DNA of 64,000 nt, taken from Lutjanus erythropterus (lineage: Eukaryota; Chordata; Actinopteri; Lutjaniformes; Lutjanidae). Below are positions 5,063 through 47,029 of the stretch, in pieces; the stretch's first letter is position 1; the number at the start of each line of letters is the position of its first letter. The DNA lies in the NCBI GenBank assembly GCA_020091685.1, contig CM034600.1, forward strand, positions 12,628,438 through 12,692,437, in the 5' to 3' direction. The notes beneath the pieces are model-generated. The model made no database searches. It was not told the origin of the DNA and was given only the letters and a program-made list of their open reading frames with translations. Made by a program: the position numbers and the translations under genes.

Positions 5063-5305
5063 TGCAGTTGTATTTTGGTGTTTCAAATAAATGTAGTGTT
5101 TTAAAATTTTAATACTTTTTAATTTTCCCTTTTCATCCCATTTATAGACACTTCAACTGCCTTTTAGAAGTGGATTTCTTCCTACCATGGATCTTTCTGC
5201 TTTAGTAAAAAGAAAAATGTAAACACCATAGGACAGTGGACTTCGGAGCACCTAAGTAGCACTTAACAGAGCCTGCTGCCTGCCTGAAGGCCTCATCAAA
5301 GGAAT

Positions 5306-5938
5306 ATGAGTGACTTAACAGAGTTTGAAAGATGCCAAATAGTTGCTGCACGACTATCAGGCGCATCTGTCACCAAAACTGCACAGCTGTTTAACGTGGC
5401 GAGAGGAACGGTCTCCAGAGTCATGACTGTGTACATCAAACATGGACGAACAGCATCCGCAAAGAAGAACAGCGGGCGCAAGTCAAAGCTCACTGAAAAT
5501 GATAGACAGACCCTCCTCAGGATAGTTGATGAACACCCTGAGTACACAGCCTCAAAGATAACCACAGAGCTGAACAGACACCTCTCACACGCCGTCTCAG
5601 TAAAAACTATACGGCGTGAGCTTCACAAAGCTGGTATATTTAGAGGAGCAGCCAATCGTAAACCAGAGGCAGAGACTGACGCACAAAAGCCAGATGGAAA
5701 GAACACTAAACCTGAACCTCATACACAGAAATCTGGTGAAGAGAGCACAAGACGTGAAATGTTAAAACATGACAAAGAGTGTGGCACACAAAAGCCTCCG
5801 GAGGACAAAACTGTATCTGAACCCCAGGCAGAAAAATCTGAAGAGACGAGACAACCTGAAGTCAGTGAAGAAGATTACAGCACTCAAAACTCTGGTGCAG
5901 AGAGCACAGGAGCTGAATGCCAGACAAATGTACAGTAA
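5306..5938 (+). CDS. Domesticated Tc1-like transposase DNA-binding protein, long paralogue
   Basis: An intact 210-residue ORF lies in the second exon, starting at [20 protein letters not shown]. Residues 1 to about 45 form the first HTH of Tc1-like transposases. A basic linker ([17 protein letters not shown]) follows. Residues of about 58-110 form the second, paired-type HTH, ending in [15 protein letters not shown]. In a normal Tc1 transposase a DDE catalytic domain of some 220 residues would follow. Here it is replaced by about 95 hydrophilic residues with a loose repeated theme ([30 protein letters not shown]). The start codon is a true ATG and the frame has no stop or shift, unlike the decayed transposase elsewhere in this window. 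This fits a host gene that kept only DNA binding. Its DNA target and role are unknown; a nuclear location is inferred. It could instead be a deletion derivative of a transposon. Confidence 0.72.
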
Positions 5939-24548: not shown

Positions 24549-27500
24549 TCAAATAGTTGTGACTACAGATTTTAATGGTTCCACCTCTTTGATGATGCTT
24601 GGCTGATGTCCGCCTAGATTTTCTACAGCTTCCCGCAACTTTACAGCAGTCTTGTCAACCTTGGGTTTGGCGATCAGATCTGCTATCTTCTTCCTGTTTT
24701 GCCTCTGGGTGTGAAGGCTGCTGTACAGCTTGTTCAAGTCCTTCATCAGACAAAAAGTCTTGCAGGCCCTCAGTTCCGGCGCCAGATTACTTGGCCTCTT
24801 GTCCTGCTGCTGGCCCAGCTGCACCACCCAGAACTTAGCCAAGTCACTGGTGCTCTTTGCGTGGCTCGCCACCATGTTGAGGATCAGGGGGTAAAGGTCA
24901 TGAGCTGCAGCTGGGATGGAGGGTTCTGGGAGGCCGTTGTTGGGAGGAGAGTCACTGGGCTGTGAAGACAGCTGCGAGAAGAGAGTTCAACTTAAGTTTT
25001 AAGACATTATGAGAAGGAGGACAGTAAATCACGCACAACCACCACAGGCACCTGAGCAATGGAGTAAACAGAGCTGCACCCCTTTAGCAAATGCATGCTT
25101 TTGCATCCACACTTTTTGTTCAGGCAACTTTTAAAAAAGTCTTAAAATCTTTGCTGCCACAGAAATAAAATCCCCAAATAAAGCAAAACATTCTGCAATC
25201 AGTCATCTGGAAACACACCTGATAGACAGTGTTATGAGTTCATGTTTAATTTGGCGTGTATCTGATCCAAGAAGCAGCAAACATTTTAGTGACAACTCCT
25301 AATTTTTTAAAACTGTTTTCCTCTCATGGTTGAATCCCTCTGAAATAGTGTAGCTGACCAACAGGCACTGGTAGCGAGCTTTGGATACTGTCAACATACA
25401 TATACACATTATTTGCACTTCAAGAGTTACGTGTTTTCATAGACATCTAAAAAATAGTTAATATTTCATATTTTTTAAAGGGAATTTGGTGTAATATTTC
25501 CCCTAGAAAGTGCAGGGAGGTTCAGTTTAATTCAGGCTGCTAATATGTTATATTTTTTTAAATATTTTGTCACAACTACAGAAACACTAGGTAACTGCTA
25601 AAACATGATAAGGTTGTCTGTTGTTGACTGCTACTAGTTATTGGTTTGATTAATGGTATAATAATTTGTGTATTGATTACTCACATGGCTGACCAGGGTA
25701 ATGGACTGGTTGTACATTTTGACTCGTCAGACCAGGAAAAACACAGGTGGATAATAACAGTGATTAAAGCTCAGTTACATTAGGTGTCCAGTAACAGTGA
25801 CCGTGAACCAGCATGCACAATACAAGGACCTCCCCTAAGTGGGACAGAGCAGTCGTTAATACACCTTTGCGTTTTCCAGTATGACATGTCGAAATGTGTG
25901 CTGTGCAACTAGTCCATTATAAGCTAATTGTACTCAGTTTCTAACAGTATGCAGTAAATGGATGTTTTGTGTGCATTTATCTGCCACTCACTGTTGAAAG
26001 TACAGAACACAATGGAAAAAAATACGCTTTTATATATTACAGTACTAAATAAAGTAAGATTTATGGTGTAAGGGGATGATTGAAGGCTCTGTATTGCGGG
26101 AATTAGCACTATCAGGTGTTACTGAGAATTTCCTACCATACTAATCTCACACGCCCACTTTTTAACTGTAAATAGGCACTCATGACAATTGTAAAAGGTC
26201 AAGGATTACCCTGAGTGACACAATAAAGTCCTTATTTTGGTCCCGGATGTAAAGAGATAAAGGCAAATTTAACTTCATATTCATTGTGTAGTATTTCTTT
26301 GGTATTCTAATTGGTGATAAACTCTTTGAGAGAACAGGTTGGTTTTGTCTGCAATAAGGTCACTAAATCTCTTTCTGAGATTCTGAGAATAATGTACACA
26401 GCATTATATTACACTTTAAAGTAGTAATATGTTATATTTGAGCATTCAAAAATAAGTACTGCAGTAAAATAGTGAATTGGAGCCACAGATGGAATATTAA
26501 ATGCAGCTGCAGGTCAAATCCCTATTCAATATATGACCTATGCTTGAACCAAGTTGTTTCCCTCCCCTTTCCTCCCTTCGGGCAAATTTTCTGAAGCCTG
26601 CAGGGACACTGAAAATGATGCAGGATGAGTGCAACAATCTTAAGTAGATAATGACAAATGCAGACAAATCCCACATTGTAAGTTGATCCGCTGCTCCAAA
26701 AATGCGTACTTTGGAGTTGGAGTGCAGTGACTCTGTTGCTCAATCTAATTATTATGATCATCCACTGACTCTAGAAGATAATGACTGATTTCTTATAACT
26801 CATCAACACTAACTCATTCAGCAAATATTCTGCATTAATATGAACTCTAATAAACCTAGAACAAGAAAAACAAATACAGATGTTTTGGTCTGCAATGGGA
26901 ATTTTAAAGGAGAACATGGTGGCTGTAGCGTTGTTTTCAGAAGCAAACTTGTTGCATGTTTCCTTTTATGACTATCATGGTCATTTTATGATTTAGAACA
27001 ATAAATATATTACATATTTCTCTTTTCATGTATCCATATCCAACATTCTGTAATATTGCCAGGGCACTTACTTTTCCTGTTTTATTTGTACAAAATATTG
27101 CTGCTGCAGAAACGATTTATCAGATCAGCAACATTTTACAACATCATACAAGTTGTTGTACCAAGCACCTCTTTTTTTATTACAGCTGTTGACTATATTT
27201 TTGACATCAGCACTCTTCAAATCTGCACATTTGTTTTTATTTACTTCATCATTTTATATATTATTGTTCAAATAATTCACCATTCGATAATTAGCCAGCT
27301 AATAACATCCCATGGTCAGTTTCCTATTGAATATTCTGTGGCTATCTGTCATTCTATCATCTATCTATCATTCCTAGTCAGACAGAAATAAATGTTAAAG
27401 ACAAATAACACTCTTTACCTGTGGACACACGATGAGCACGCGGTCTGCAGCCTTGGCCTGTTCTGCCAGCCAGCGCATCGGCCCCAGCTCTGCAATCTTC

Positions 27501-30500
27501 CCCTGCTGCCACATGTCGACAGCGACGCTGCAGCCGCCGTTCCACTGCAGGAACTCTGCCAGGGCCACAACTGCCCGCTGGAAGGCCAAATTCTCAGCTG
27601 GGTACACCACGAGGACAGGAACGGCATCCATGGGAGCTACAGGCAACATTTTGAAACCCAGTGATGTGGCAAAGTTGGCTCCACAGCATTTATCTGGGGA
27701 GTAAGAAATTATTGAAAAGGTTAGTTTTCTCCAGCATCAGGCAGCAGCAGTGTCAGTCACTTTATGTAAGCTAGAAGGGTTTTCTGAATTTCTACGAAAA
27801 ATGTGTAGCTAGCACGAGCTTGATAGTTTTAAATACTTCTTTCATCCAACCTTCAAATCTAGGAGGTGAAGCACATTTACATTACAAGACAGGAAGACGT
27901 CTAGCTGCAGTGGAACTAATTTCATTTCATATTCAGCATTAAGAGAGTTACTTTACAAATATATACCAATATTTACTAATTACCTGTTTAAAAATTTAAT
28001 CAGTAACCAAATGTAAGTATCACAATATTAAAGTAATGGAACGTGATTACCTCCTGTTAGTTTTGGATTACCTGAATACCAAATATGGAAAAACTGTTTA
28101 GCCCAATATAATTTTTTTATGTTTATTAATTGTATGCCTGCTATTCTTTCCTTTAAGCACAAAAGCAGATTCAGTTCATTAGTGTTGATTATGCACATTT
28201 TAAACATACTTTGTTGAGTAACTATCCAAGTCACATGTCACACTTAAACTTCAAAAAAACTGCCATAAACTTATCCCAACCTGGGGCTTACACACATCAT
28301 CCCAGTCACTAGCATCTTTTTTCTGCTTATTTCGGTGCAGCTAACGTTAGCAGTTGGTCTTGCCTGAAGAATTATAGATGTCATTTTAGATGTCAAGTCT
28401 TTGGATGGTGACAACATTTTGAAGATGACAATGTTGTTACTGATTAAAAGTAAAATAAGCTAGTGAAAACATTTTTTCCACTAGAAGCCATGATGATGAA
28501 TTAGGAGCTGTAAGATTAAAGAGACTCATAAGGTGCTGCAATATGTGTAAACTGTGCAAGGTAGTATATAGTCCTTTATTTCCAAATATATTTTAAAATT
28601 GCTGTCCCACTAAAAATCTCATTTTTTATTAAATGTATCTGTACTCTGATTACGTCTTTTTTCCTGTAAAGGAATACAGTTCCCTTTTCATGTATCCTTA
28701 TTATGTAATCTTACATACAATCCCAAAGCCTACTTGTAATTATATTTGTATAACTTTTTCAAGTTTGTTTTTACTTGTACTTAAGAATGCATTATGTTGA
28801 TCTACTTAGTCACTTCTAAAATCATTATTCACTGCCCAGTGGGCCGACAATTTGAATTATGTCCAAAGCTTTCATCTGCACCTTTGTAAACAATGAGGCT
28901 ATCCAAGTTCAAATGGGCAACGGACAAAAAAATAACCCCAAAACACTGCACTTTGATTAAAATAATGAAATATCATAATCTTGGGTAGGGTTAGGAAACA
29001 AAAGCTCTTTGGTTAAGGTTAGAGAAACATTAATAAATAAATCTAATGTCTCAATACACTGCTGACGTCTGAATAATGCTCTGGACACTACGACTGCACA
29101 GTGTATTGCAAGACTGCCTGTTTTGGTAGAAAACAAATGAAATATGTTGTCAGTGTTGTGTTGTATTTACAGATTATGTAGCAGGAACTCAGGATCATCA
29201 AACTGGCCAGTCCCGCAAAAATGGCCATGGCCACGCTGGTGAAGTTGGTAGTACCAGGGACAACTGGTGTAGTCTTAGCCGTCGTTCTTTCAACTGGAGT
29301 AATTTTAAAAAATATTATTAAAGAAAGAATAATCAACATCTGTCATAAAGTACAATGTATTACATTATGCATACATACACACATGCCCAAGAGATATTGC
29401 TCACCTGTAGAAATAGAAGAAGTTGTAGGTGCAACAGCTGGTCAGAAAACAGAGAAGAAGGTTTAAACATTTTAATACTTTTCACATCATGCAGTCTGTA
29501 TGGACACAACATACACACTGCCTGGACAAAAAAATCACTACCTGGATTCATCTAAGCAAATATGTAAGATCCTTCCATTGGATAATTACTGCCATGATTA
29601 ATATGTTTCAGCTGACAACAAGTTATTTAACCCTAACTGATGCAGCGAGTAGCTTCTCATTTCTTAAACAAACATATGACAGAAGACATATCCTGTGCTC
29701 GTGGAAAATACATTACTTTGTTTCAGAAGGGTCAAATTATTGTCCTGCATCAAGCAAAGAAAACAACTAAGAAGATTGATGAAACTACTAAAACTGGGTT
29801 AAGAACTGTCCAACACATTATTAAAACCTGGAAGGACAGTGACGAACCATCATCTTCCAAGAAGAAATGTGGTCAGAAAAAAATCCTGAATGATCACTGA
29901 AACATTTGGTGAAATCAAATCGTAGAAAATGTAGGAAAATGTAGTATTTCAATATTGTGCAAATAACAAGGTTTGTATGCAATGTTATGGAGACAGTAAA
30001 CGGATAGTTTGGATTATCTGATGTGGGGTTTTATGAGGTACTTATCAATAGTCAGTGTATTACCTGCAGTCGATGGTGGTCAGCACTAACCAAGTTAGCA
30101 ATAAACTGCTGTGGACAGGGTCAGCAACAAAATGTTTTTTTGCCACTTAAAAAAAGTCCACCTAAAATAATCAGTATCAGTATAAGTGTATGCTTGATTT
30201 CTAATATTTTCACAGTTCTTTTGCAGCCTGTCAGCTTTTTCTTATGGGAAACTAAGCCAAATATCACTCCCTCCAAACCAACCAAACACCATAGGTAAAC
30301 TTAGTAATTTTAAGATGCAGAGCACAGGAGTTTAAGATCTACTGCCGCCTCAATTTATTTAATTTGTTTGCATTCTTGTGTGACTTGGGTGAATCCAAAC
30401 AATCCTTTTAAAACACAGACGGTGAAAGTGGTGAAAATATTCAAAATTTAGAATTTTTTAGGTGCACATTTTGAATGGCTAAAATATCTTTTGTTGTTAA

Positions 30501-33500
30501 CCCTGTCCACAGCAGTTCACTGGTTTAGCTTCCATGCCGGTGCCTCTCTCAACTTCTCCTAACTTGGGCATCTGACCACCACCTACTGTAGGTAATACGC
30601 TGACAAGTAACAAGTACCTTATACAACCCAACATCAAACAATTTGAACTATCCCTTTAACTAATGTTTCTTATGCAGGGCAGTGTGTCTAACAAACTAAC
30701 GACAAATTGCCTGCTTAAATGAAAATAAAATACTCTGCTGCAAGTATTGAAAAATTGGAGAATTTAAAAAAAAAAACTTACGTGGTATTATGCGGGGAAC
30801 AGTGATACTGGTTACTCTGCATGGTAGGCCGCTCCCCTGCTGAGGCAAAGGGAGATTGCAAGCCTGGATGGTGTGGATGCCAGTGGACTTGCTCACTACA
30901 TAATGGAACCATATCTGGATTTGAAAAGATGACAACCAGTAAATATAGTTTAATCCTTTCAACCTCACATACCCTTCAGTAAGTCCATTATGTCAACCTC
31001 ATGCTGTCCAAACAATCACAGATTAAACATTATCACTTTTAATCAAGATTCCATCCCCATGATACCTGTGTCGACTCAGTGTGAACTGCATTGGCCAAAC
31101 TTTGATTATATTCACAGTCGTATGTTGATCCTGAGATGATTATCCGTGTTCCGTCCAGAAAATCAATACTCGCTGCAGAGACAGAAAATGTCAAAAAAGT
31201 TCAAAATATCAGATGACCATCACTGGCCATTAGATTTCAATCAGTCAGTATCCTTCACTTCCAGCATGGCAGAGTATGTACCGTAAATGTTTGTCAGGTC
31301 TAGTGCAGTCACCTCAACATGAGGTCATGAGTCCCGTTTGTCAAGTAGGGGAGGCCGGGGCAATTGTAACACACTCAATTCCTACCAACAAACACAAGCT
31401 AGAGGGATGCTTCTTATTCAGTAGGATTCTCTGTCTCCCTGTGGAACAGGAGCAGCATCATTTCACCGCAGCAGAAGTTTTCAACAACAATATGATTTTG
31501 ACATAAATCAATTTTATCTCTGGGTTACTGGTTAACATGAGCAACCTATGCTAACATAGGCATTGCTAGCTAGCATATAAGATTTTATCATGGCTTCAGG
31601 ATATTGGACATATACAGTATATATATTAGGCCACATAGCCCAATGTAAGGACCCTGTTTTTCTGTGTTGGCAAACATATTTCACCAAATTCAAATGTAAA
31701 CACTTTCCTAGTCTTCTGCAAAACAATGTTTGGCATCAAGAAGAATCTGAACATATATACAAACTACAGCTGTAATGTGATTACTTTGAGGTGTATATTG
31801 AGATACAGTGGGTTAATATTACTTATTTTTTCAGTGTTACAATTGCCACCATGTAAGAGGCAAATGAAATGCTTCTTGCATTAAATTAAATATTATAGCT
31901 GATGATATATATTATCATCATTATGTTTTTCCTCTCTCATTTCTGTTACTACGAAACACCGGAGTGGCCAGTTACAGCGTGCCGCTACTTCCATTGTCTG
32001 AGCATCTCTGCTGACGTGCAGACGTCCTTTCAAACATCATGGCGGAAGGCTTGCAGCCAAAGTTAGCTAAATTAGCTTATTAGATAGAAAAGAGACACAG
32101 AATGTTCTTCGATTTGTAGAAAGCAATATATCAGTGGGTGGAGTGCGATGCCACAATACCGGCTATGTACTGCACTGTCTGCAGAGAGTTCCTGGCTAAA
32201 GCCAATAAAAATGTATTATTTTTCTGCAGCAACGGAAGCTACAGAAAACAGAACTTGGAGATTTTCAGCTGTGATTGGGCGTTAAACAGGTGGTTCACCC
32301 GTTCAGAGAGGACACAGAGGGTGTAACTGGTAGGGATGTTCCTGGCGACTAATTTCCCTGTTGATTAAACGCAAAGTTTCATTTAGACAAGTCGACTAGT
32401 CTAACAGTGAATAAACACTGCCAAACCGCGCTGGTTTTACAAGCTGTCATCTATCCGACGTTGCTGATATAATCATCCGGGGTTGCCTAGGCGATCAGGT
32501 TAGCGAGAGGGGCTGCAGTCTGACACTGCCGCAGCCCCAACTAGTGGCGGGCGGCTGCATAAAATCTTAGAGGCAACAGATAACTGGCATCATGCATGAA
32601 TGAAATATTTATAAATAGTTTAAACGACCAGTATTTCTGGTGCCGACTAGAGAGGGCGGCTCACTAGTTGTCTAATCGTGCACATCCCCAGTAACCAATA
32701 CTGTTTAATTACTGTGAAATAGCACTCAAACATTTCACTGATCTATACAAATTCCCAATTAAATACAATGTTGAGTTGAGTTTGAAGTTTACTGAACATG
32801 TTAAAAGAATAAAAACAAAATAAAAACAAGCTATAAGAAAGAAAGAAGATCCCTTATCCCTTCTTTGTTGGCTTTAATATAGCTAATAAATACTTCTCTC
32901 TGAAGAAAGAAGTATTGTGTAGTGTTTTATACAGTCAACACGCAATGGATTTTAGTTATAAATAAGTTGTGAGCAAAAGTATGCACCACACAGCCAGACA
33001 AAGAACCTCCTAGGCAGGGCAAGTAGGAATTTAGATGGGGCAAATAGATTTGAGAAGTACTTTGCCTGCAGGGCAAGTAGGAAAAAACCTTAATGTGACC
33101 ATGCAACTGTATTAATAATTGGTGCACATGTATCAACAGATGACTGGCATATTTCAAGTAATCTGTTAGTTATGAATGAAAATGTGAAAAATGTTACACT
33201 TGCCCCCGGTCTCCCCTAAATGAATTAACCAGTGCCTGGGACATCTACTCTGTTACTGGATAAATTACAATAACAGAACAAATGATAAATAGTCATTACA
33301 GATTAATGGAAATTAATGGACAATGCAATGATGCATAATAATCACTCAGTCTTGTATTACATATATTTATTATTTGAGAATTCTGCACCATTTGTGTGTA
33401 GAAGTGTCTGGTAAACTGCCATAAAGTCAACAATATCAAGTGGTGTCAGTTTCCATGTGGAAAAGATACAAAGTGCCCTCTCCTACCATCAATGTTGATT

Positions 33501-34698
33501 GCCCAGCTTATGTTTATCTTATATCTTTCTCCCTCTGGCACCAGCTTCGCTTTCAAGTCCACCGGCAAAGATGGAGACAGCTCACTGTGAGGAGCGAACT
33601 CTGGAACAAAAGACCACAAGAAATCCACACGTTAATAATGTGTGCAGTATTATTCTGACATTTAAGCAGATGTTCTTTGTTAGTTCAGCTCTTGAAGAGT
33701 ACTGTTTGTTCCAGTCTGTCAGAACACCAGAGAACACTCAATGTAAAAACATTATATTCATTATATTCTGGAACTCCTGAGTTATACAATGTGTTGAAAA
33801 CCAGTGTAGCCTCTGACTGTATTCAGTCAGTTTCAGTCAGGTATTTTAAATAAACTTTTGTTGTTTACCCCTGGGCTACATAAACAACGTAAAGCTGGCA
33901 ATCTGGCTGTCATCCTGAATTAATGCAAAATACAATACAATACAATATAATATAATATAATATAATATAATGCAAAAAGAAAGGTGAGAGCTATTTAGAA
34001 CAGAAATAAATCTTAAGTGCAAGTAATCATCCACTAGCCTTGAAAGGATGGTTCACCCAAAAAACAAAAATACATTTGTTTTCATACCTGTAGGTCGATT
34101 TATCTGTCTAGATTGATGTGGCGTTACCTGCTGAGTTTTGGAGATATCACCAATAGAAATGCCTGTCATCTCATATGGAAACTAGACAGCACTCAGCTTG
34201 TGGCGCTCAAAGCACAAAAAATATATTTGATTTGAAACTCAACAGCAACATCTCTTTCCACAGTCGTAATGGTCACTCAAGTAGGAACTACTTTTTTAAA
34301 GTAAGAAGGGAAAGTAAGAAGGCAAAAGTAAAAAATATGTATTTTTGATGTTGGGTAGAACTGTTCGTTTAAAGTTTTGTCTCCGCATTGACCTGCAAAT
34401 TATATTTTATATCAAAACCACACAAAAAAAAAAGTATTTTCGCTTTTTAAGTTAGATGATATTATTGACATTAGAGGCTAGAGTTCATCCGGAGTAAGAA
34501 TAATAAATATGACAACATACCATCAACTTCAACACAGTCCATTTTCTGCAAAGAAATAAAAAAAAAAAATCACGTACAGGTAAATCACTTTGAATCTGAA
34601 ACTGGAAGAATTACGTGGTAAAGTCGTTAACTTACAATTCCATGTGGTGCCACCTGAGCAGCGATGAAGGAGACAAAAATCAGTGCGATTCCCCACAT
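24549..34698 (-). CDS. il17rb: Interleukin-17 receptor B-like, with shortened ectodomain
   Basis: Nine coding exons: 34698-34636, 34545-34521, 33600-33487, 31172-31066, 30914-30782, 29437-29405, 29293-29171, 27693-27419, 24971-24549. All phases agree, giving 431 residues (human about 502). The N-terminal signal peptide is MWGIALIFVSFIAAQVAPHG. A first fibronectin-like domain follows (LVPEGERYKINISWAINIDG and onward). Next come a Thr/Pro/Ser-rich stretch (VAPTTSSIS, TTAKTTPVVPGTT), one membrane helix (VAMAIFAGLASLMILSSCYI) and a cytosolic SEFIR domain (PVLVVYPAENLAFQ; MWQQGKIAELGPMRWLAEQA). IL17RB binds IL-17B/IL-17E and signals through Act1 by SEFIR-SEFIR contact. The second extracellular domain of the human receptor was not found. 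An upstream in-frame ATG at 34838, joined across a 5' intron (exon end 34821, acceptor before 34716), would add twelve residues, but it lies at the predicted TSS. Head-to-head with CHDH as in mammals. Confidence 0.92.
29518..29930 (+). pseudogene. Fragment of a Tc1-like transposon in IL17RB intron
   Basis: The sequence begins CACTGCCTGGACAAAAAAAT, a typical terminal sequence of a fish Tc1-like element. It then encodes a degenerate first part of the transposase DNA-binding domain (KGQIIVLHQAKKTTKKID, then GLRTVQHIIKTWKDS). It ends before any catalytic domain. It lies in the intron where the missing second receptor domain would be expected. Confidence 0.65.
30001..30656. mobile_element. Long-inverted-repeat MITE in IL17RB intron
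   Basis: The left arm (GGATAGTTTGGATTATCTGA, AGTCAGTGTATTACCTGCAG) recurs inverted in the right arm, which ends AACTATCCCTTTAA. The same family occurs at 6778-6975 (one arm), 47861-48645 and 53290-53915. Full copies end at TTAA. No ORF. Confidence 0.7.
31347..33217. mobile_element. 1.87-kb inverted-repeat DNA element with nested insertion
   Basis: The left end AGGGGAGGCCGGGGCAATTG continues to TAACA and matches the reverse complement of the right end (AGGGGAGACCGGGGGCAAGT). A further internal copy of the end motif, GTGTTACAATTGCCACC, is at about 31834. No transposase ORF was recognised. A hAT-like element is nested inside at 32331-32690. It lies in IL17RB intron sequence between 31172 and 33487. 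Confidence 0.65.
32331..32690. mobile_element. hAT-like MITE, complete
   Basis: Ends TAGGGATGTTC and GCACATCCCCA are inverted repeats. Flanks GTAACTGG and GTAACCAA may be an aged 8-bp target duplication. It is related to the partial copy at 10323. Confidence 0.6.
33936..33972. repeat. ATACA/ATATA pentanucleotide microsatellite
   Basis: Repeated AATAC units change into repeated AATAT units (acaatacaatataatataat). Confidence 0.9.
34045..34378. repeat. 'GGTTCACCCAAAAA' interspersed element
   Basis: It begins GGATGGTTCACCCAAAAA and ends near GGGTAGAACTGTTCGTTTAA. Related copies lie at about 42598-43227 and 49837-50300. This is a common fish MITE-like repeat without an ORF. Confidence 0.6.
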
Positions 34699-34820
34699 CT
34701 TCACTACCTGAGTAGCCTAAAAAGCACAACAAAAATTAATAAACAGAAAAAGTGAGAAATACGTACATTTTCACAATTCAGAGCACATTCAAACCTGAGT
34801 GCAGAGCACAACCTGCTCAC

Positions 34821-34838
34821 CTGTGATCCACTTTCCAT
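34821..34838 (-). other. il17rb: IL17RB 5' exon with in-frame upstream ATG
   Basis: On the minus strand ATGGAAAGTGGATCACAG is followed by the donor GTGAGC. When joined to the acceptor before 34716 it is in frame with MWGIALIF and would give MESGSQATQVVK ahead of the signal peptide. A TATA-box-based start would fall almost on this ATG, so it is more likely leader sequence. Confidence 0.45.
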
Positions 34839-34892: not shown

Positions 34893-35122
34893 GGTCAAGA
34901 AGGGACCGTTGGTTTAGAAAACTCTCGCGAGATTTGTAAGCGTTACACATTGTACAAGCTAATCATGTTTTTATTAATAATTTAAAGGCTGTGGTTAAGG
35001 TTTGGGTAGGTTCAGAGACAAAAACACTCAGCTAGTGTCAGAGAAAGATTATGATTTGGGTTAAAAATTATCAGTCTCGCGAGATCTTTCCTGCGTTTGG
35101 GGGTTCCCCTCTAGACACGACC
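34893..35122 (-). mobile_element. TCTCGCGAGA-bearing MITE, copy C
   Basis: This 230-bp element is in the reverse orientation to copies A and B. Plus-strand ends are GGTCAAGAAGGGACCGT and TTCCCCTCTAGACACGACC. Perfect TCTCGCGAGA palindromes lie at 34923-34932 and 35075-35084. Read on the minus strand, its interior matches copy B, for example AAAGATCTCGCGAGA followed by the 'aacccaaatcataatctttctct' block. It sits immediately upstream of the IL17RB TATA box. Confidence 0.8.
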
Positions 35123-35140
35123 GAGCAAACTGTCTGTGGT

Positions 35141-35374
35141 GGTCGTGTCTACAGGGGAAACCATAAATTTGTGGAACCCTCGCGAGATCTCTACGTTTTG
35201 TTTATTCTCTGCGCAGGTTGTACAAACTAATTCTGTTTTATAATGTGACAACGCTGTTGTTCAGGTCTACTTAGATTTAGGGACCACAACACTTTGTTAA
35301 GAACATAATTTGAGTTAAAGCGATGACTCTCGCGAGATCTTTCGCGCGTCTGGGGTTCTCTCCTAGATGAGGCC
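35141..35374 (-). mobile_element. TCTCGCGAGA-bearing MITE, copy D
   Basis: This 234-bp element follows copy C after 18 bp, in the same orientation. Its left end is GGTCGTGTCTACAGGGGAAA and its right end CTCCTAGATGAGGCC. A variant palindrome CCTCGCGAGA lies at 35178-35187 and a perfect TCTCGCGAGA at 35328-35337. It borders the putative first exon of CHDH. Copies C and D together occupy most of the IL17RB-CHDH intergenic space. Confidence 0.8.
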
Positions 35375-35442: not shown

Positions 35443-37557
35443 GTAAGGGCAGTTATTTTCTGCTGCTTAAACTTAAGTTTTCAGAACGTCTTCCTGCCTG
35501 TGTTGGTAATAAACTACTCTGGCACAAACTCGGTTTAAAGTGTTCGTAAAGTTGCATTCAGTTGGTTTGCATGTCCTGCTGTGAACTGCAGACGACTGAC
35601 CGACATAAATAACGTTATCTAAACGAACGTAACGGTTAAAGTTGAAGTCCCGAAAGAAGTCTCAACAGCGCTGTCACCAATTGACCATACCCGGTAAAGA
35701 TAAAAAAAATAATTTAAACATCTTATCTTTAATAGTTTTAACCCTTGAACTGTGTTTTAAACGAGCAGAAATGTGTCTGCAAGTGTAGGTAGGTGTTGCA
35801 GCAGAGTTATAGACCCCAGACTGGTTGCGAAATTGGCCTTTCATCGTAAACTGTGAATTCAGACCGAAATGATAAGTTTGAACGTGAAACTTGCAGACAT
35901 CCTTCTGTCATACACTTCTCACTTTAGGACATGACATTTACATACTAGCTTAAGTGAATGGCTGCTTTATTGGTTTGTTAATATGACAGCCATCCTGACC
36001 CAGTTAGATATCCCTGCCTTGTCCTGAATGACATGACTACACTATCTCTGGAGAGTTGTAAACATTTGCACAGCATAGGCAAGAGACACACACACACGTG
36101 ACCTACGTGACTTTTTGGGACATTCAATAGCCCTGTACTCATTTCCTGGGGGCAGTTTTTCAAAACGCTTAACCCAAACCAGATTTATCCAGATATGATT
36201 AAATCTCACATTTTGGTATTTCAAAACCAGAAGATGTGATCCTGATCCAATGAAGTTGGGATACAGATTTGGTAATCCAGTCCTACCCAGGGTTCAGGTC
36301 AAATGTTATTTTTGGGTATATCAAAACTCTAAGATGTGGATTAGGGTAGTTTTGATGATAAAAATCAGGATTATTCAGATACCACTGGAATGGTGGATTC
36401 GGGGTGGACTCCAGGTGGCTGTAGAGACATGTAGGGCTCATGGGATATATTTAATAATTATTTGATTGATGTTTTCCATGATAAAATAACACAGATCAAA
36501 CAAAACTATATTCATTCTAAATTAAACAATCAACCAATAAATCATTATTTGATTAGAACACAAAAAACAAGTCCAAGTTGAAGTAAAAATGGGTTCAGTG
36601 AGAGATGCTCTAATGAAACATTATTTTACTGACGGTCTTCTGATCAGTAAAGGCAGTTGTATGCTGACAAAACAGTCTATTACTTTTTTAATCCAGTAAG
36701 ACATTTAATTAATAATAATTAATTACTAATGCACTTCCAAACATATTCAGTTGTCTGTAATAATGAAATGTTATTTTGATCAACAGATGGAAGCCTATCC
36801 TAAGACTGCAAATCCAGATTCTCTAATCCTGATCTTGAAGAAGATCAGGTTTATCTCGGATAGCAAAAAAAGGGTTTACAAAATCTGGATTGTTCTGATC
36901 TAGACTAAAAGTTTTGAAATACTGGCCCCCAGAGACTTACCTTAAGACTACCCATTCTCATTACTTGTCTTACCCTATCCCATGCCCTACACCTAACCTT
37001 AAGTTAACCCTACCCTTAACAACTGACTCTGTCAGTGGCTTGCAGATGTTCACATTTTATTTATCAAATCTCCTCTGAAGCTGGCTGTGCATGATCACAG
37101 CGTTTTATCAGGCTGAATCCAAGTGACACTGCAGCAGAGAGAAGCTTACTTGTTGAGACACATAAGACTCCGTTTGACCAAATAAAACAAATAAAATGTT
37201 AACATTTGGCACTTCATGAATCAGAAGTTAAGAGAGTAACTTCTCTCCTGATCAGCAGTGAGGGGACTATGACAAATAACAAGGGCTCCAGATCAGGTCT
37301 TTGTAGCTGTTCATTTCACTAACAGTTGGTAACTTATTGGTTGAGACTGTGAGGTCAAGGTGTGGCTCAAGTAATAATTAATAAAATGTCAAACAAAAGC
37401 CTCTTTGTAACCCACAATTTGCATACTTAGCAGGACGCAGTACACACAATCAGTCTTGGACATGTAAATTTCATTCAGTACCATCAGATATACTAGTTCT
37501 AGTTCCAGCTTGCCCCATCCAGTGCATCCTTTAAAGTCTGTTTCTTATTTACAGTGA

Positions 37558-37605
37558 ATGAAGAAAACCCTTCCGGAGCCAGGATGTTGTCTTTGGCCAT
37601 ATTAG
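37558..37605 (+). CDS. Upstream ORF overlapping the CHDH start
   Basis: An ATG four bases into the exon opens a 15-codon frame ([15 protein letters not shown]) that ends at TAG 37603-37605, past the CHDH ATG at 37584, in a different frame. It could lower CHDH translation. It is seen in sequence; its effect is inferred. Confidence 0.45.
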
Positions 37606-40600
37606 GCCAGACTGGAGCCCGACGAGTTGTGACTTCAACTCGAGGGGGATTTATGAGGGATGGCAGGTGCCTGTTCACCTGTTTGCCAGAGTGGCCATTT
37701 GTCCCCAAGACCAGAAACACTAGCCAGGCCTTTTCCTGCTCCACTTCCTTCAGCCAGTACAGATGCTTTAGCGCCACATCTGCTTATCTGAATGCTTCAT
37801 CATCACCCACAGCAAATCAGAAAACACCCTCCTACAGTTATGTCATCGTTGGGGCGGGGTCGGCGGGCTGTGTTCTTGCCAACCGCCTGAGTGAGGATTC
37901 CCATGAGTCTGTGCTGCTGCTGGAGGCTGGGCCTAAAGATTTGCTGCTAGGCAGCTTACGGCTGTCATGGAAGATCCACATGCCAGCTGCGCTGACCTAC
38001 AACCTCTGTGATGACAAGTACAGTAGTTCAATTATTACAGTGCAGTATAAAGCTATTTAGAGCTATAACAATTAGTTGATTAGTCAGTTGGTTATCAAGT
38101 ATGCCGTTAATTGCCAATTATTTTGATAATCGGTCAACTGTTTTGAGTCATTTCTTTTAAAAATATCCAAATTCTCAAGTGTAATTATTTTCTTGTGTCT
38201 TTTGTCCTCTATAAGAATCATCTGAATATCTTTGGGTTGGGAAAAAAAAAAAAAACATTTGGACACTGATTGAGATTTTTCAGCATTTTCTGAAATTTTA
38301 TTGATCTAACAACTAATCAATTAATCGAGAAAATGATGCAAACCACTGATTACCTAAACGCAAATACAGACTCGATGTGACATTTTAGCAACACACCAGT
38401 CATGGGAGACTCAACAGTAACAAATGAGTCATTCAACTTATTTGTCCAGCTGATATCAGTTTCCAAATAACAATAAATATGAAACTGTTGATGTCATTCT
38501 GTATTTCTTTTCATTTCTTCTCAGGTATAACTGGTACTACCACACTTTACCCCAGGCCCACATGGACAGCCGGGTGCTGTACTGGCCGAGGGGCCGTGTC
38601 TGGGGCGGGTCCTCTTCTCTCAATGCCATGGTGTACATCCGTGGACATGCTGAAGACTACAACCGCTGGCAGAGAGAGGGGGCTGAGGGCTGGGATTACG
38701 AACACTGTCTGCCTTACTTCAAGAAAGCTCAGTGTCATGAGCTGGGAGAAAACAGGTACCTAACAGAAATATCTGGAGCGCTTTTTTTTTTTTCATCCAA
38801 GGGCATCATGCAAAACCTGTGAGCATCACAGAACCCTATCGTCACTATTTATTCTCAAGCTCTGACTGGATGATAGCTGTTATTAAAGTAAATGAAATGA
38901 AATGTTCTAAGTTATCTGATAATTATATATGTACAACTGTCTACAGAAAGGTAGCATTGTTGGTAATAAAATGATAAATATCTTTTCAGTATTGATCTTT
39001 TAATACCTCCTGTATATGTGACTTCCTTAGATAGATATGTTGCATTTTAAAATGCAACTGTTCTCATCTGAGACATATCTAATTTGTGTTTCTTGTGGGA
39101 ACTACAGGTACCGGGGAGGCAGGGGACCTCTTCATGTGTCCAGAGGAAAGACCAACCATCCCCTTCACAAGACTTTTATTGAAGCAGGGCAGCAGGCAGG
39201 GTACCCCTTCACTGATGACATGAATGGATACCAACAGGAGGGCCTGGGTTGGATGGATATGACCATTTATAAAGGTTCTGGGAAATACTATAACATCAAT
39301 GTAGTATTTATACATCTGTTATGAACCACCCTTTTAATTTTGTCTACATCTGACTGTCCAAATCTGTCCAGGGAAGAGGTGGAGCTCAGCCAGTGCCTAC
39401 CTGAGACCTGCTCTGGGTCGACCCAACCTGAAGACGGAGGTACGCTGCCTGACCACCAAGATCCTGTTTGATGGCAACCGCGCTGTGGGTGTGGAATACA
39501 CTCAGAATGGACAAAAGAAAAGGGTAAAATGAAGAGACTTTCTGTCAGTTTAAAAGATGAGGAAAAGAAAATTATATTGTGACAGGTGATATTAATTAAA
39601 AAAAAAAATCTAAATTCTTAACCAATCCTTTTCATTTATCTTTTCACTTACTACTGACTTGATTTATGTGGATGTTTTTTACGCTGTGCTAACAACGTGG
39701 ATGACGGGATGGCAATGGTGGTCATTGGATCCATCATTCTGGTTCAGACTGAAATATTTATGCAGTTATTGGATGGGTTGGATGAATCCTAATTACATTT
39801 TTGTATTCTGGTGAACTATCTTGATATCTTGATTATTTTAATTGATTACCATCAAATTTGGTAGACATGTTGCCCAGTGGATGAATCAGACGACTTTGGT
39901 AATCCCCTGACGTTTCATTTAGCCCCGCAAGCAGGTCAGAACTTTCGTTTATCCATTGAAAATCAACATTAATTTTTCATACCTTCATGGTTCTCAGACT
40001 ATATATTCAAGAGACTTCCCCTTGCACCATTATGAGGTTGACATTTCCATGTTACAGTTATCATTTTGAGCATGTTAGCATTCAGGATTAAACTGTTGAA
40101 TATTTTCACAAGAATGGCTGCAGATACTCACTCTTCCTCAGTGATTCACTCATCAGTTTTTTTCTGATCCCTCTTCAGGTGTTTGCAGATAAAGAGGTGA
40201 TATTAAGTGGAGGAGCCATCAACTCCCCTCAGCTTCTCATGTTGTCTGGTGTGGGCAACGCCAATGACATGAAACAACTTGACATCCCTGTTGTTCAGCA
40301 CTTACCAGGTACATTTTGAGAGAGTGTTTTTTTTTCTTTGGCCAGCGATAGAGTGATTAATTGTCATTTTCATTTTTTTTTATCTCCCTGTCCTACTCTC
40401 TTCTCTTGGTTGTTTCTCAGGTGTTGGCAGTAACCTGCAGGATCATTTGGAGCTGTACATCCAGCAGAAGTGCACTCAGCCCATCACCCTGTACAAGGCC
40501 CAGAAACCTTTCCACATGGTCAAGATAGGTCTGGAGTGGCTCACCATGTTCACTGGTAATCAAAGGCATCTGCACATGCATATGAAAATACAAATGTTCT

Positions 40601-43600
40601 GCTGGATGATCTAAAACCCCAATTCCCCCAAAAGTGGAGACACTGTAGAATGTAAATAAAAACAGAATGCAGTGATTTACAATGATTTTTTTTTTACCTA
40701 TATTCAATTATGTTCAAACTGAAAAATGTTATTGTTTTTTGTAAATATACACTCACTCTGAATTTGATGCCTACACCATGTTACATCACTGAGTAGACTA
40801 ATTGTTTTTAATTGTAGTTCTTGAAGTTTTGAAAGTGAAATTCTGTCCCATATTTGCTTGATATAGGAATTCAGGTGCTCAAAAGTCCAGGTTTTCTGTT
40901 GTGTTTTGCACTACATAATGCACCACACATATTCAATAGGAGCAAAACGTAGTTTGGCATTTTCTTGCTGAAATAAGCAGGGACGTCCTCAAGACTTGAT
41001 TGATTTCCAAAGAAATGTGAACTCCTAAGTCCACAGCACACGTTTTCACTTTGTGTCGGTCCAGTCCTAGAAGTTGGTGGTGTTTCTGGATGTTGTTGAT
41101 GTATAGCTTTCTCTTTGCATTAGTAGATGCAGCGACAGACTGTGTTTACTGACAACGGTTTTCTTGAATGCTCCTGAGCCTATATAGTATCCTTTATACA
41201 TGTTATTTTTTTAATGCAGTGCTGCCTGATTGATCAAAGGAACCGGCAATTAATATTGGTTTTTGGCCTTGCCCCTTACGTGCAGGGATTTCTCCATATT
41301 CTCTAAGTGTTTAATGATAATATGGACTGTATATGGTGAAATCCCTAAATTACTTGTAATCGTACATTGAGAAACCTGCTAAGCTTAAACTGGTGCTGTT
41401 TAAGCTAGGCAGCACTGCATTAAAAAATAACATGTATAAAGGATACTATATAAGCTTAAACTGGTGCTGTTTTTCACAAAGAGGTGAACCTCACCACATC
41501 CTTGCTTGAACAGGGATTTCCATTTATATTTAATAAGGGAAAAAGCTTCAGGCTGAACACCGGCACTCATTTGGTGTGTGGCAACACTTTGTAGATCATA
41601 GCTGGCTTCTATTTCAACACCATTTATTGGGATCTCTTAAACAGCTGTCTTCATTGGAACCCACTTTGTGAAATGTGACATTAACTGGCACGACCACAAG
41701 CAGGGGACATTAACTGTGATACAGATTGTGGGCTTGAGCTTGGTACAAATGATCTTGGCAGAGGATGCTGTACATTTGTGGTGGTGTCACAGTAAGGGGC
41801 AGGAGCAGGTGGGGGCCAGCTTACTCATAAATGACAAATAAAAACTACATGCATCACACTGGTGATATCGATAAAAAAAACAAAGAGCAAAGTATCACAA
41901 CACACAGTATATGTATGAAGTATCTGTTGTGTGATCTTTAGTCGCACATGACACAGAGTCCCACCATCTCACTAACCATGATGATCATCCCATAGGTTAT
42001 GGAGCAACAGCTCACTTGGAGAGTGGAGGGTTCATCCGCAGTCGGCCAGGTGTCACACACCCTGACATCCAGTTTCACTTCCTGCCCTCACAAGTCATTG
42101 ACCATGGACGAGTTGCCTCCAAGATAGAGGCGTATCAGGTGTGTGTGGTTTGTGTTTTAAGGAGACTGTTGCTCTGTTTTGTCTGATTAATACAGTTGTT
42201 TATCTCTGACTCCACATGGTGTGTGTGTGTCTGAGAGCTTTCAGGATTATTTATGATCATGTTCCTATTGTATTACACAGGAAAATGTGTCTTGTTGGTG
42301 TTACTGTGATTTGGCTGTGACTGTGTCACTGACATACTGTGTGTACTCTTAAGCCTGTATGCACCCAAACTGAGGATAAGATCCTCACATGCCCAAGAGA
42401 ATGCTTACACACCTGTCATTCCATGGAAAAACAGTTACTTGATCCCTGATGATACAATAACAGCTTCCAAGAAATTTCCAGAGAGGTGGCCCAGCTATTT
42501 ATAGCTTCCTTCAGATAATGATTAAAGATTACATCATTATTAGATCATAATGCACAGTGCTGACACTAGGTTTCAATTTGAACTGCTACAAAAGGCTTGA
42601 AGGGACAGTTCACCCTGAAACCAAAATACCTCCTGAGAAACTTAGTTTCTTCTAGACAAGCATTTTTTTTTGTCAGTGTGCATTACAGTAACAGGATAAA
42701 ACAGAACCTTACAGAATGCACAATAACAATATGTGACAGCAGGCACTGTTGGGTAACTGATGAGAGAAGGTGAAATGAGTGGTTGGTAGTTTCAGCTATC
42801 AGCTGTTTTAAGCTGTGTGATTCTACACAGAACAAAGCAATAGCATGGAAGGCGGTATGATATGTATGATTGAGAAGTGAGAGGAGGACACTTTCTCATG
42901 TTGTCACATCACATATTACAAGGAAAGGCATTTAAGTAATTTAATAAGTCTCCAAGAAAATGGTTCCTACGTGAAACTGCTCACAGCCAGGTGTGTGGAT
43001 TGTCTTGAGTAACCTGATCATGATTTCTGAAAAGAGACATTACTGTGTATTAGTTTTGAGCCCCACAAATCAGATAATATTTAATTTCATTATATTTGGG
43101 AGAAAACAAACATATCTACAGCAAATATCTCTAAAACTCACACCAAAACTATCTAGATGGATAAATAGGACTACAGGTGAGAGGCAAAATATGTATCTTT
43201 GATTTTGGAGTGACCTGTCCCTTTAACATATTTAAAAGTACATTTTCTGTCCTGCAAATGTAAATATGGCACTATATAGTTTTTGATGTCTGAATTTTTT
43301 GAGTAGGCAAATCATGGGTTATTTGTGTTTAAAGTATTTGCAGGTTTGTGTCATGAGTAGAGCTGCAACTAACAGTTATTTTCATTAGTCTGTTTCCCTG
43401 ATCAATCTATGAGTTTTTTGGTCTATAAAATTTCAGAAAATGGTGAAAAATATCAATCAGTGTTTGCCAAAGCCCAAGATCATGTCCCCAAATGTTTTGT
43501 TTTGTCTAGAAGCAGAAAATACACAGTTTACTGTGATAGAGGTGTGTGTACTGGATCTTGGTGTGCCCAGAGACACACAGTGGTTGCTTAACTGTCAGGT

Positions 43601-46600
43601 CATTTAGTGGAAAATAACACTGAATTCTGGGGTTTTCCATGAATACATTTTTGAAGAAACTCTGATTTATCTGTGTAGCTGCCCCTGATACTGGGTAGGG
43701 CTTTTCATTGCACAAAGATTGTTGGGTTATTTTATTTATTTATTTATTTTTTTGTGGCATTTGTTTGACTATTGGACATTGAGATGTCCAAGAAAATGGA
43801 CAAGAAATGGGAGAGAGAGGAGGAGTATGACATTCAACAAAGGTCGCCAGCAGAATTTGTTCTGAAAAATCAGTATTTGTTGATTTTTTAAAAACTCAGA
43901 AAGTCTTTCCATAATACTTACTGCTATTCTGATTTAGTTTTTTCTAGAAACCGCAGAAACTCTTCTAACCACCTGGATGAAAAAATATGCTCTTGATACT
44001 AGGGCTGCAACTAAAGACTATTTTCATTATCCATTTATTGGCAGATTATTTTTATTTAATTTGTTAATGATTAGTCATGGTAAAGTAGTAAAAAGATGGC
44101 CTCAGATTGCTTCATTTGTGCAAACAGCATTCCAAATCCCAAAGACTCTTAATTTACTATCTTAAATAACAAAGAAAAGCAGTAAATCCTCATATTTAAG
44201 AGGCTGAAAGTAGCAAATGTTGTTTCTTTGCTTGAAAAAAATTGTGAAACATTTAATCAGATACCAAAATAGTTTATGTTCTTTCAGTCGACTAATTGAT
44301 TAATCAACTAAAACCAGTTTTGAGAACTGGGTTAAAACCTTTTTTTAGTTTAGTTTTTTTTGTTTTGTTTTGTCATTCAAGCAAAGATGGTAGCTCTTGA
44401 CATAATTGTCTGTACTGAACTGTGCAACATGAAACAAAAGTTATCCGTTTATGCTGCACTGATGTTACACTGTATTGTTTAATTTTCGCAAAAATAACAT
44501 GTTTATGTTTTTCTTTTGCTATCCAAAAGAGCAAGGAGATATGTGTTATTTCTAGCTGTCTGGATGTTGGCAACTTCAGAAATGGGTTGATTTTTTTTAT
44601 TGTGCAGCAGACTGAATACCAGGTGAATATAAAGTCTTCAGAAAAGCTGTCAGTGTTGTTATAAAACCCTTTGGTGTTTCAAAGATTACTTGGGGTTTAT
44701 TCATGGGGATGTTTAGCTCTGTGATTGCAATAACGGCAAAAGCAGAAACTAAAACCATAAATACGATAACAATCACTGGACGCTGTAATCATTCCGTTGT
44801 GTCTTCTTCATTCTGTCTGTGAAGCCATACCTTCCTAGCATGACAACGCTGTGATTAATGAGGTGTGAAGATAGGGGATTACAGCAACACAGTACTTTTG
44901 GCATCTAAGTGTAAATATAAAACACAGCTCAGAAATTGCATTAAAAGTGTGTGTTTGTGTTGCAGGTTCATGTTGGACCAATGAGAAGCACCAGTATCGG
45001 CTGGTTGAAACTGAAGAGCGCCAACCCCCTGGATCACCCAATTCTGCAGCCAAACTATCTGTCCACCGGTAAGATTTAGTCACTGGACTGTCAAGTACTA
45101 AATCCATCAGAGGTGTCAAGAACTTCACTCCACCTGACAGGAGAATATACTTTCTGAAACCTCATTAGTCTCCTCATACAGCAGGAGATCTACCTGTCTG
45201 AGCTCTGCTTGGGTCTGGATATACTGTGCTTGATATTTTTGCTTTGACCATCCCCTCTGAAAGCTGAGCCCCCACAAGGATCATTGTAATTTGAAAGATT
45301 CTTGGTATCAAGTTTATCTCTTCAATGTGGGAAATGACTTGCTAGAGTTGGGTTAGATTAAGATCTCTATGTATTTTGTTGCAGAGATACTTAAGTTTGC
45401 ACGCTAACCAGCTAACTCCAGCCCATCCTATCATGGCCCTTCCGATGTGCCCCATGGGACCTAAATTGGAAAAAATATTAACTGTAGTCTGTGGTGGGAG
45501 ACAAGTTGTTTTTTGGCTCTATTTGAACTGTACCACAAATTATAAATACGCTGTTTATCAATTTGAAACATAATTTTACAAGTCAAGAAAGTCTCATTTA
45601 GTTGTCCATGTATTGTAGTTTAGTTTTGTGTGAAACTGCTTAGTGAACTACATCTCTCATTTTGCACAGTCTACGCCCCCAGCACCAATCTTCCTGTCCC
45701 TTTGACATTATCTTACCTGAAGTGTTTTATTAAGTGACTCCTGGTGCCTTTATCAGCCATGAAGTCGTTGTGTGACTACATCCCAGTATGAAAACACACA
45801 GGCATTGTAGCTCACTTTTGAAGAGAGAAAATCATGACATCACTTCTGTGACTTCTGGTTGTGTAGTCTTCATAATTACCTATCTTCACAGTCTGACACT
45901 TTAACAGTTTTACAGCAAAATGCTACTTTTATTATCTTTTAAATTGACAAACATCATATGTATAATTTGTGGCACAATTCACACAGGATCCAAAAATTAT
46001 TTTTCTCTCGCCATTGATTACAGTTCATATTTTTTCCAAAGTTAGGTCCCATGGTGGTCCACCAGAAGGGGCGTGACCAAGGCACTCTATACTGCTTTGT
46101 GCCTCAAGAAGCAAGAGGCGTCGCCCGTAGTTTCAGCTGGGACATGTGTGAGCTGGGGGGTTTTTACTTTCACAAACTCTCTTAGCTTAACCGTACAAGA
46201 CTCGATGGAAACGAAATAAAACTCACCAAAAAGTCTTCCTAATGTTCAAAAATAGCCAACTCCAGTGTGGTTGAAATAAATCCTTCATCCACTGTGGTTA
46301 GATGTAAGAATATTCTGGCTCCCCGCTGCCTCTCTGAAGCCTGACTACCTCTTGCTCAAGGTTCCATTGTCGTGTTTACAAATACTCCCAGGTCTGGCCA
46401 GACTCAAGTCAGCTGAGGGCCACTAGCAACACAGCTAACTGAGTTAACAGCAGCGCGTACGCTAGTTAAAGCAAAGAGTACAGTGAGCAGCAGTTAGCTG
46501 TTACTCTGATGATGTGCTGCCCTCTATTAGTTTGACTAATGTTCAACAGATGGCCATATTTCATACATTGCCTCACTATTGTTCATCTTTTTCTCTCTTC

Positions 46601-47029
46601 TCTCTGTCAGATATTGACGTGTGGGAGTTCAGGGAGTGTGTCAAACTCTCAAGAGAGATTTTTGCCCAGAAGGCCTTTGACATATTCCGTGGTCCTGAAG
46701 TCCAGCCTGGTCCTCAGGTCCAATCTGACGCTGACATCGACGCTTTTGTCCGCAGAAAAGCTGACAGCGCCTACCACCCGTCCTGCACCTGCAAGATGGG
46801 CTCGCCTTCCGATCCGATGGCAGTTGTTGACTCAAACACACGTGTTCTGGGTCTGGAGCGGCTGCGCGTGGTCGACGCTTCCATCATGCCCAGTATTGTC
46901 AGTGGCAACCTGAACGCTCCAACCATCATGATGGCAGAGAAGGCTGCTGATATCATCAGAGGTCGCCCTCCTCTTGTTGACCCAGGCGTTCCTGTGTACC
47001 AACCCGCGACACTTGACACACAGAGATGA
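37584..47029 (+). CDS. chdh: Choline dehydrogenase, mitochondrial
   Basis: Nine coding exons: 37584-38017, 38525-38755, 39108-39274, 39372-39523, 40179-40308, 40421-40555, 41996-42138, 44966-45068, 46611-47029, giving 637 residues (human 594). CHDH oxidises choline to betaine aldehyde at the inner mitochondrial membrane, using FAD and passing electrons to the respiratory chain. The N-terminal ~85 residues are Arg/Ser/Thr-rich with few acids, as in a mitochondrial targeting peptide. The FAD-binding GMC signature is [20 protein letters not shown]; then [40 protein letters not shown]. The C-terminal catalytic block is [13 protein letters not shown] (active-site His) and [18 protein letters not shown] (conserved Asn). 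The ATG at 37584 is chosen because the frame upstream (from GTG at 37554) has no ATG. An out-of-frame upstream ORF overlaps this start. The extra N-terminal length relative to human is in the presequence. Confidence 0.97.
40614..41780. mobile_element. Interspersed DNA element in CHDH intron 6
   Basis: Starts AACCCCAATTCCCCCAAAAG followed by 'tggagacactgtagaatgtaaataaaaacagaatgcagtgattt' type sequence, a very common fish non-autonomous DNA element. It also contains a near-perfect 46-base inverted repeat (41181-41226 with 41407-41452). No intact transposase. Confidence 0.55.
42598..43227. repeat. 'GGGACAGTTCACCC' MITE in CHDH intron 7
   Basis: The left end AAGGGACAGTTCACCCTGAA is inverted at the right as GTGACCTGTCCCTTTAA. 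Same family as 34045-34378 and 49837-50300. Confidence 0.65.
44003..44310. repeat. 'GGGCTGCAACTA' fish element
   Basis: Starts AGGGCTGCAACTAAAGACTA and ends near GACTAATTGATTAATCAACT. Two related pieces are nearby at 38053-38346 and 43366-43470. Confidence 0.6.

Follow-up and report, generated by a model that had tools for sequence, protein, structure and literature searches.

A MITE family of Lutjanus erythropterus with a CGCG palindrome near each end, and the retention of the motif in CpG-rich DNA

Can a DNA transposon distribute a housekeeping core-promoter motif through a vertebrate genome, and what becomes of the motif in the individual copies? The question is raised by a 64,000-nucleotide stretch of contig CM034600.1 of Lutjanus erythropterus (hereafter, the window), in which a first-pass annotation, made from the letters alone, had recognized four elements bearing the palindrome TCTCGCGAGA just inside their ends and had proposed that they belong to a mobile family that spreads a ready-made promoter. 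We analyzed the window together with the 937.6-Mb assembly of 444 contigs.

The elements of the window and the genes beside them

All four elements are indeed present (Table 1). They are about 230-243 bp long and 67-73.5% identical to each other in pairwise comparisons, and searching the 64-kb window with a profile built from the four gives no further full copy. With at most one mismatch, TCTCGCGAGA occurs at 9 places in the 64 kb, against 0.23 expected; one of these, at 57081, lies outside the elements, and the other eight (six perfect, two with one mismatch) are the palindromes previously assigned to them. The palindromes stand 36-38 bases from the element ends, with the exception of one end of E3 (30 bases), and the sequence AAATCTCG is present at both E1 palindromes and at the right-hand palindrome of E3. 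The CpG observed/expected ratio (o/e) is ~1.0-1.1 within the elements, versus 0.35 for the window, and the palindrome CpGs are intact at 16 of 16 positions, versus 19 of 34 for the other inferred CpG sites (P 0.0009). Rfam yields no matches in the window.

The terminal inverted repeats that the elements were said to share are evident in the consensus of E1-E4, where the left and right 23-mers, one of them inverted, agree at 20 of 23 positions, but not in every copy. Against a random mean of 6, the agreement is 14/23 in E1 (P 0.0009), 19/23 in E2 (P <0.00001) and 13/23 in E4 (P 0.003); in E3 taken alone, the inverted repeat is not significant (8/23, P 0.24). Hairpin strength, expressed as z, is -2.3 in E1, -3.7 in E2 and -2.1 in E4, and is weak in E3 (-1.2).

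Neither the collinearity ascribed to the elements nor their status as four separate insertions survives closer inspection. E3 and E4, which are separated by a gap of 18 bases, are oriented opposite to E1 and E2. The latter two have their right flank in common (254-849 versus 3720-4348, 72% identity), as well as a downstream coding exon (73% identity); the element together with the first-exon region is still 72% identical, similar to the exon, and the stretch between the shared flank and the exon gives no blastn match, which implies that the duplication is old. Judging from this pattern, E1 and E2 are best read as one insertion that would have been copied when the gene beside it was duplicated in tandem, in which case the window probably holds three insertions, not four. 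The homology of the two units starts where the element itself starts on the left (254 and 3720), either because neutral DNA upstream has decayed or because the duplication broke there, and the homology of E1-E2 to E3-E4 ends at the element boundaries. Clear 9-bp target duplications are not visible at the window copies; the flank repeat of E2 spans 12 bases, 10 of them matching (0.0005 per site at random), and does not fit 9 bp.

E3 and E4 sit between two divergent genes, the SEFIR-domain gene on the minus strand and the GMC oxidoreductase gene on the plus strand, which, from the vertebrate gene order and from a match to the C-terminal region of a calcium channel further on, are probably il17rb and chdh. 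By eye, a splice donor follows E3, and a donor-like GTAAGG follows E4, with a possible first-exon splice donor at ~35441. The accessible portion of PMC10721200 contains nothing on a shared il17rb/chdh promoter. The tandem helix-turn-helix frames downstream of E1 and E2 have no DDE match within the frame and possibly are domesticated transposase DNA-binding genes. Elsewhere in the window, a fragment on the minus strand (56912-57334) matches DDE_3 and probably derives from a Tc1-type transposase.

Table 1. Coordinates of the elements, the CGCG palindromes (TCTCGCGAGA) and the neighboring genes in the window
Feature	Position	Strand	Remark
E1	253..493 (252/253-493/494, ends +/-1 base)	+	element copy
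E2	3718..3955	+	element copy; best inverted ends of the four, 19/23
E3	34893..35122	-	element copy, upstream of minus-strand IL-17-receptor-like gene
E4	35141..35374	-	element copy, upstream of plus-strand choline-dehydrogenase-like gene
CGCG palindrome	289..298		E1; perfect, AAA just before
CGCG palindrome	449..458		E1; perfect, AAA just before
CGCG palindrome	3755..3764		E2; perfect
CGCG palindrome	3910..3919		E2; one mismatch, CGCG core intact
CGCG palindrome	34923..34932		E3; perfect
CGCG palindrome	35075..35084		E3; perfect
CGCG palindrome	35178..35187		E4; one mismatch, CGCG core intact
CGCG palindrome	35328..35337		E4; perfect
SEFIR-domain gene	24552..34838	-	SEFIR exons 24552-24986, 27398-27736
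Signal-peptide-like exon of SEFIR gene	near 34630-34700	-	by eye
TATAAA	34863..34868	-	between E3 and supposed first exon of IL-17-receptor-like gene, by eye
GMC oxidoreductase coding exons	37503..47026	+	probably chdh
Helix-turn-helix frame	1229..1651	+	downstream of E1; best match just under Pfam cut-off
Tc1/Tc3-type helix-turn-helix frame	5288..5935	+	downstream of E2; paralogue of 1229-1651; above cut-off

A dispersed family of high copy number

The genome contains 2938 copies of TCTCGCGAGA, versus 438 of the reversed control word, which differs in CpG content. Perfect pairs 135-162 bases apart number 568, versus 0 for the reversed control; together with the 9 places versus 0.23 in the window, this rules out chance as the origin of the window palindromes and of the genomic pairs. 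All 15 pairs that were read (L012-L026) match the element profile. With E2 as the query, at least 40 other copies were found on many contigs at 73-78% identity (40 of the 1777 first-look candidates scored; 41 matches including E2 itself). The family profile has 243 columns and 55 rows that represent 54 distinct copies, E2 being entered twice (also as L027); L027 was left out of the retention, flank and target-duplication counts.

The members of the family are short (~240 bp) and non-coding, with inverted ends GGTCGTGTCTAGAAGGGAACC, and the ends of the wider profile are, by eye, inverted copies. Target duplications were assessed in the 37 of the 54 copies that have complete ends, the other 17 being incomplete or too near an edge: for 9 bp, the flanks match at 49.5% of positions versus 27.4% after shuffling (z 9.4), which makes 9 bp the best among lengths of 6-12 bp (next best z 2.3), and at least 7 of the 9 positions agree in 10 of the 37 copies, versus a shuffled mean of 0.31 and maximum of 3. 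Short, non-coding and dispersed in high copy number, with inverted ends and 9-bp target duplications, the family is an old MITE; thus, the surmise that the window elements are mobile, with defined ends and copies elsewhere that are more than segmental duplicates, is borne out by the 568 pairs and by the copies on many contigs.

The family accounts for most of the perfect palindromes in the sample that was read in detail, namely, 44 of the first 50 listed (contig 1, first 15.4 Mb). These 44 consist of 28 sites in profile-matching perfect pairs, 2 that by their coordinates fall in the second copies at L023 and L025, and 14 among the 20 single sites read, which give clear matches (E 1e-11 or better), whereas 5 single sites belong to another repeat and 1 has no match. 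Given this proportion, the MITE may have supplied many of the CGCG sites in the genome. The other repeat (L059, L060, L061, L062 and L068, ~500 bases each) is near-identical among its copies and carries TCTCGCGAGATCATC; it matches the MITE profile weakly (E about 1e-4). A shortened form of the MITE, 125 bp long through internal deletion (L077, L078, L082-L086), lies inside a larger repeat and has multiplied with it, so that counts of exact 22-base ends are inflated; 3 of the 44 sites (L057, L058, L069) resemble this derivative travelling inside the larger repeat. Ten of the at least 100 exact-end sites were read, and seven of these are the 125-bp derivative with shared flanks (one cut short at the right end), L079 is another 125-bp copy, and two are full-length copies. 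These ten sites, all short copies, lend no support to the younger partner that the exact-end search had suggested, and no autonomous element sharing the ends is among them.

At 6 of 44 loci (L023, L025, L035, L038, L050, L053), a second copy lies within ~1.5 kb of the first, 71-80% identical to it and in either relative orientation, as with E3 and E4; such pairs could mark hot spots of insertion, or promoters at which both copies were retained. Two scans of viral records gave 0 matches; among bacterial records, there were 7 matches to the spaced pattern, one of them with a profile match at E 0.69 and the others with none at E <=1.

The definition of the Merlin superfamily includes target duplications of 8-9 bp, and the 9-bp duplication of the MITE fits this length. 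Seven Merlin-type (PF12762) transposase matches occur in the genome (on C17, C13, C23, C14, C8, C6 and C16), and in six the matching part is free of stops. At five of the seven places, no Merlin elements sharing the family ends were found within ~1.5 kb on each side: there is no profile match, and the closest 13-base match to the ends differs at 3 positions. Merlin is thus not supported as the source, and neither is MULE, for which PF10551 gave 0 matches (3 candidates scored).

Retention of the palindromes and its CpG setting

A sample of copies was chosen by an AT-rich interior word pair, with the motif ignored (the first 20 of 51 listed copies). None of the 20 has both palindromes perfect; in 3, one palindrome is perfect and its partner has a single mismatch. 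The flanks of sixteen copies are CpG-poor, and these copies have lost the motif, with 8 of 64 motif CpGs kept; in this class, the motif CpGs (8/53 with letters) fare no better than the other CpGs (6/56). The remaining four lie in CpG-rich flanks and have kept 12 of 16 motif CpGs (three copies all four, one none), or 12/13 versus 9/15 for the other CpGs. CpG-rich flanks surround all 15 of the copies chosen by the motif and 24 of the 29 chosen by similarity, and with the blind copies mostly CpG-poor and eroded, the motif-bearing copies look like a class that survived in CpG-rich DNA. The flanks of the blind copies are not significantly more often CpG-rich than the window background (4/20 versus 20/178, P 0.18), and the far flanks are CpG-rich in 16%. 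The idea that the element spreads a ready-made promoter therefore stands only in part: the motif is near both ends, and some copies are at gene starts, but most copies of the blind sample have lost the motif and CpG-rich flanks are not significantly enriched. Retention at promoters fits these data better than the making of a promoter wherever the element lands.

It appears probable, on the sequence evidence, that copies of the MITE in unmethylated promoter DNA are kept as CGCG (BANP/Kaiso) sites. The family is widely dispersed, with TCTCGCGAGA placed 36-38 bp from either end. In the samples, the palindromes have eroded along with the other CpGs where the DNA is CpG-poor and presumably methylated, and have been kept, the non-CpG letters included, where it is CpG-rich and presumably unmethylated, sometimes at a gene start. 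Under the proposed scenario, BANP and/or Kaiso/ZBTB33 would bind the kept palindromes and support transcription, often divergent, and it would be on account of host-factor binding and transcription that selection keeps the palindromes. In the window, one insertion upstream of a gene would have been duplicated later (E1 and E2), and E3 and E4 would have come to lie side by side between the divergent genes that probably are il17rb and chdh.

Some motif-bearing copies stand at gene starts, and the sampled motif-bearing copies occupy a CpG-rich setting, as does the CGCG element. The outward frames (146 of at least 70 codons, at 44 loci) match 11 Pfam families, one frame each, namely, Mat89Bb, JAB, XPG_N, PCNP, FEZ, F-box and F-box-like (one frame), Steroid_dh, ALKBH8_N, Ank and DUF3039, and some of these, for example XPG_N and ALKBH8_N, are N-terminal domains; the 148 inward frames match one Pfam model, a disordered or low-complexity repeat, in 2 frames. 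When 20 of the 146 outward frames were compared with Pfam individually, 3 matched. ATGGCGG occurs within 300 bp 5 times outward and once inward; in the near flanks, there are 6 ATGGCGG/YY1 words versus 1.0 in shuffles (0 in the far flanks) and 3 SP1 words versus 0.3. ETS, NFY, CREB, USF, E2F, ZNF143 and TATA words in the near flanks show no clear excess over shuffles, and the two NRF1 matches there are one palindromic site. There is no outward excess of splice donors within 400 bp (NAGGTRAG, 7 outward and 7 inward), with a mixed picture further out, and open frames are of no greater length outward than inward (at least 80 codons in 13 versus 14 of 88).

The order of events might have been the reverse, with inserted BANP/Kaiso sites keeping their surroundings unmethylated, such that an island of CpGs and a start site arise anew and are captured by genes later. 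The median CpG o/e of the flanks falls from 0.83 within 250 bp to the background value of 0.28 beyond 1 kb (88 flanks, 44 loci), a peak in and beside the element that such seeding would produce. Moreover, a single CGCG palindrome suffices for bidirectional reporter transcription, which methylation abolishes (PMC6192621). In one simple simulation at about the observed divergence, unmethylated drift alone raised the CpG o/e from 0.33 to 0.64, so that an island need not have existed before the insertion for the flanks to be CpG-rich. Nevertheless, we regard this course of events as rather unlikely: the motif CpGs were lost in 16 of the 20 blind copies, and the flank o/e of 0.83 exceeds the 0.64 that was simulated at d=0.16.

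Selection might also be dispensed with altogether if, in unmethylated islands, CpGs simply escape deamination, so that an inert motif looks conserved by virtue of being CpG-rich. The dependence of retention on the flanks (12/16 versus 8/64 motif CpGs) and the CpG-rich flanks of all 15 motif-chosen copies are what such passive survival predicts. However, other CpGs of the same copies fared worse. In a retention set of 37 copies chosen by E2 similarity or vicinity, where the similarity-chosen loci may over-represent constrained copies, 126 of 147 palindrome CpGs are kept, versus 133 of 312 other consensus CpGs; when the latter are restricted to the four sites with the best support, the count is 86 of 134 (P 3e-5). 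The non-CpG letters of the motif are kept as well (419/442, 94.8%), better than the interior (5127/6051, 84.7%, P 2e-10) or the ends (1184/1324, 89.4%, P 6e-4). In six bystander copies, the corresponding counts are 65/72, 787/978 and 187/208; there, the motif differs from the interior (P 0.04) and not from the ends. Accordingly, we consider purely passive survival unlikely.

It is still less probable that the palindromes are transposase-binding sites, with a coincidental likeness to a host promoter motif. Their symmetrical placing, 36-38 bases from both ends, would be natural for such sites, but this reading explains neither the link to CpG-rich flanks and gene starts nor the fact that the motif outlasts the ends. 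Perfect pairs of equal length number 568 for the motif, 31 for the ends and 51 (23+28) for the interior. Among the copies chosen by perfect ends (31, reduced to 29 by dropping two of three near-identical C13 copies), the palindrome is perfect at 27 of 58 ends and has at most one mismatch at 44 of 58, with both perfect in 7 of the 29; in the 37-copy set, both palindromes are perfect in 15 copies and both end words in 2. Finally, derivation of all copies from duplicated promoters, including segmental duplication of a single one, without any transposition, fits E1 and E2 only and is practically out of the question given the unrelated flanks of E3 and E4, the 9-bp duplications and the dispersal over many contigs.

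In a broader scenario, one MITE family, to which 44 of the 50 sampled perfect sites belong, wrote most of the genomic CGCG (BANP/Kaiso) housekeeping-promoter sites, and the survivors constitute a regulatory network that transposition has distributed; divergent promoters shared by two genes, as between il17rb and chdh, would be part of it. This scenario is conceivable, but we lean slightly against it.

Precedents among promoter motifs and transposons

Transposons have often been proposed as carriers of control sites, mostly in the form of retroelement-borne tissue-specific enhancers. Here, a DNA transposon bears a housekeeping core-promoter motif near both ends, in hundreds of copies, and the coexistence of eroded, CpG-poor copies with motif-keeping, CpG-rich ones makes transposon-built core promoters testable in one genome with existing assays. 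Repeat libraries contain unclassified fish MITEs with 9-bp target duplications, and the size, ends and duplication could fit the present family, the consensus of which may already be deposited there. In open-licence full texts, we found no description of such a CGCG-bearing MITE family, although one may exist elsewhere.

The 10-bp palindrome, the CpG-rich setting, the location at gene starts and the paired or multiple sites are all shared with the CGCG element, or Banp motif, as described in PMC6192621, PMC9363121 and PMC10206803. In zebrafish, start sites follow the Banp motif at a distance of 20-70 nt, and banp mutants show lower accessibility at the motif (PMC9363121); the preferred sequence of BANP is AAATCTCG (PMC10206803). 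E3, with the adjacent TATA box recognized by eye, resembles the PRDX1 arrangement described for the CGCG element. In zebrafish, DNA transposons are reported to lie in genes or close to them more frequently than the longer retroelements do (PMC9341512). In the accessible portions of PMC6192621 and PMC9363121, the CGCG element is not connected with a transposon, whereas here it is transposon-borne.

The nearest precedents that we have seen are the THE1 LTRs with BANP/ZBTB33 motifs and the ProtoRAG ends with YY1 sites. The human THE1B and THE1C (PMC10474299) likewise are transposable element families with a CGCG-containing BANP/ZBTB33 motif, and the activity of THE1 is methylation-sensitive, but they are LTR retroelements that were studied as enhancers in cancer cells, in contrast to a DNA transposon that bears the motif at both ends and has some copies at gene starts. 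The inverted repeats of ProtoRAG (PMC7481187) similarly equip a DNA transposon with terminal sites for a host factor, YY1, and in reporters each of the two ends drives bidirectional transcription. ProtoRAG, however, is autonomous and expresses its own genes, whereas the family described here is non-coding, present in high copy number and, in some of its copies, positioned at the genes of the host.
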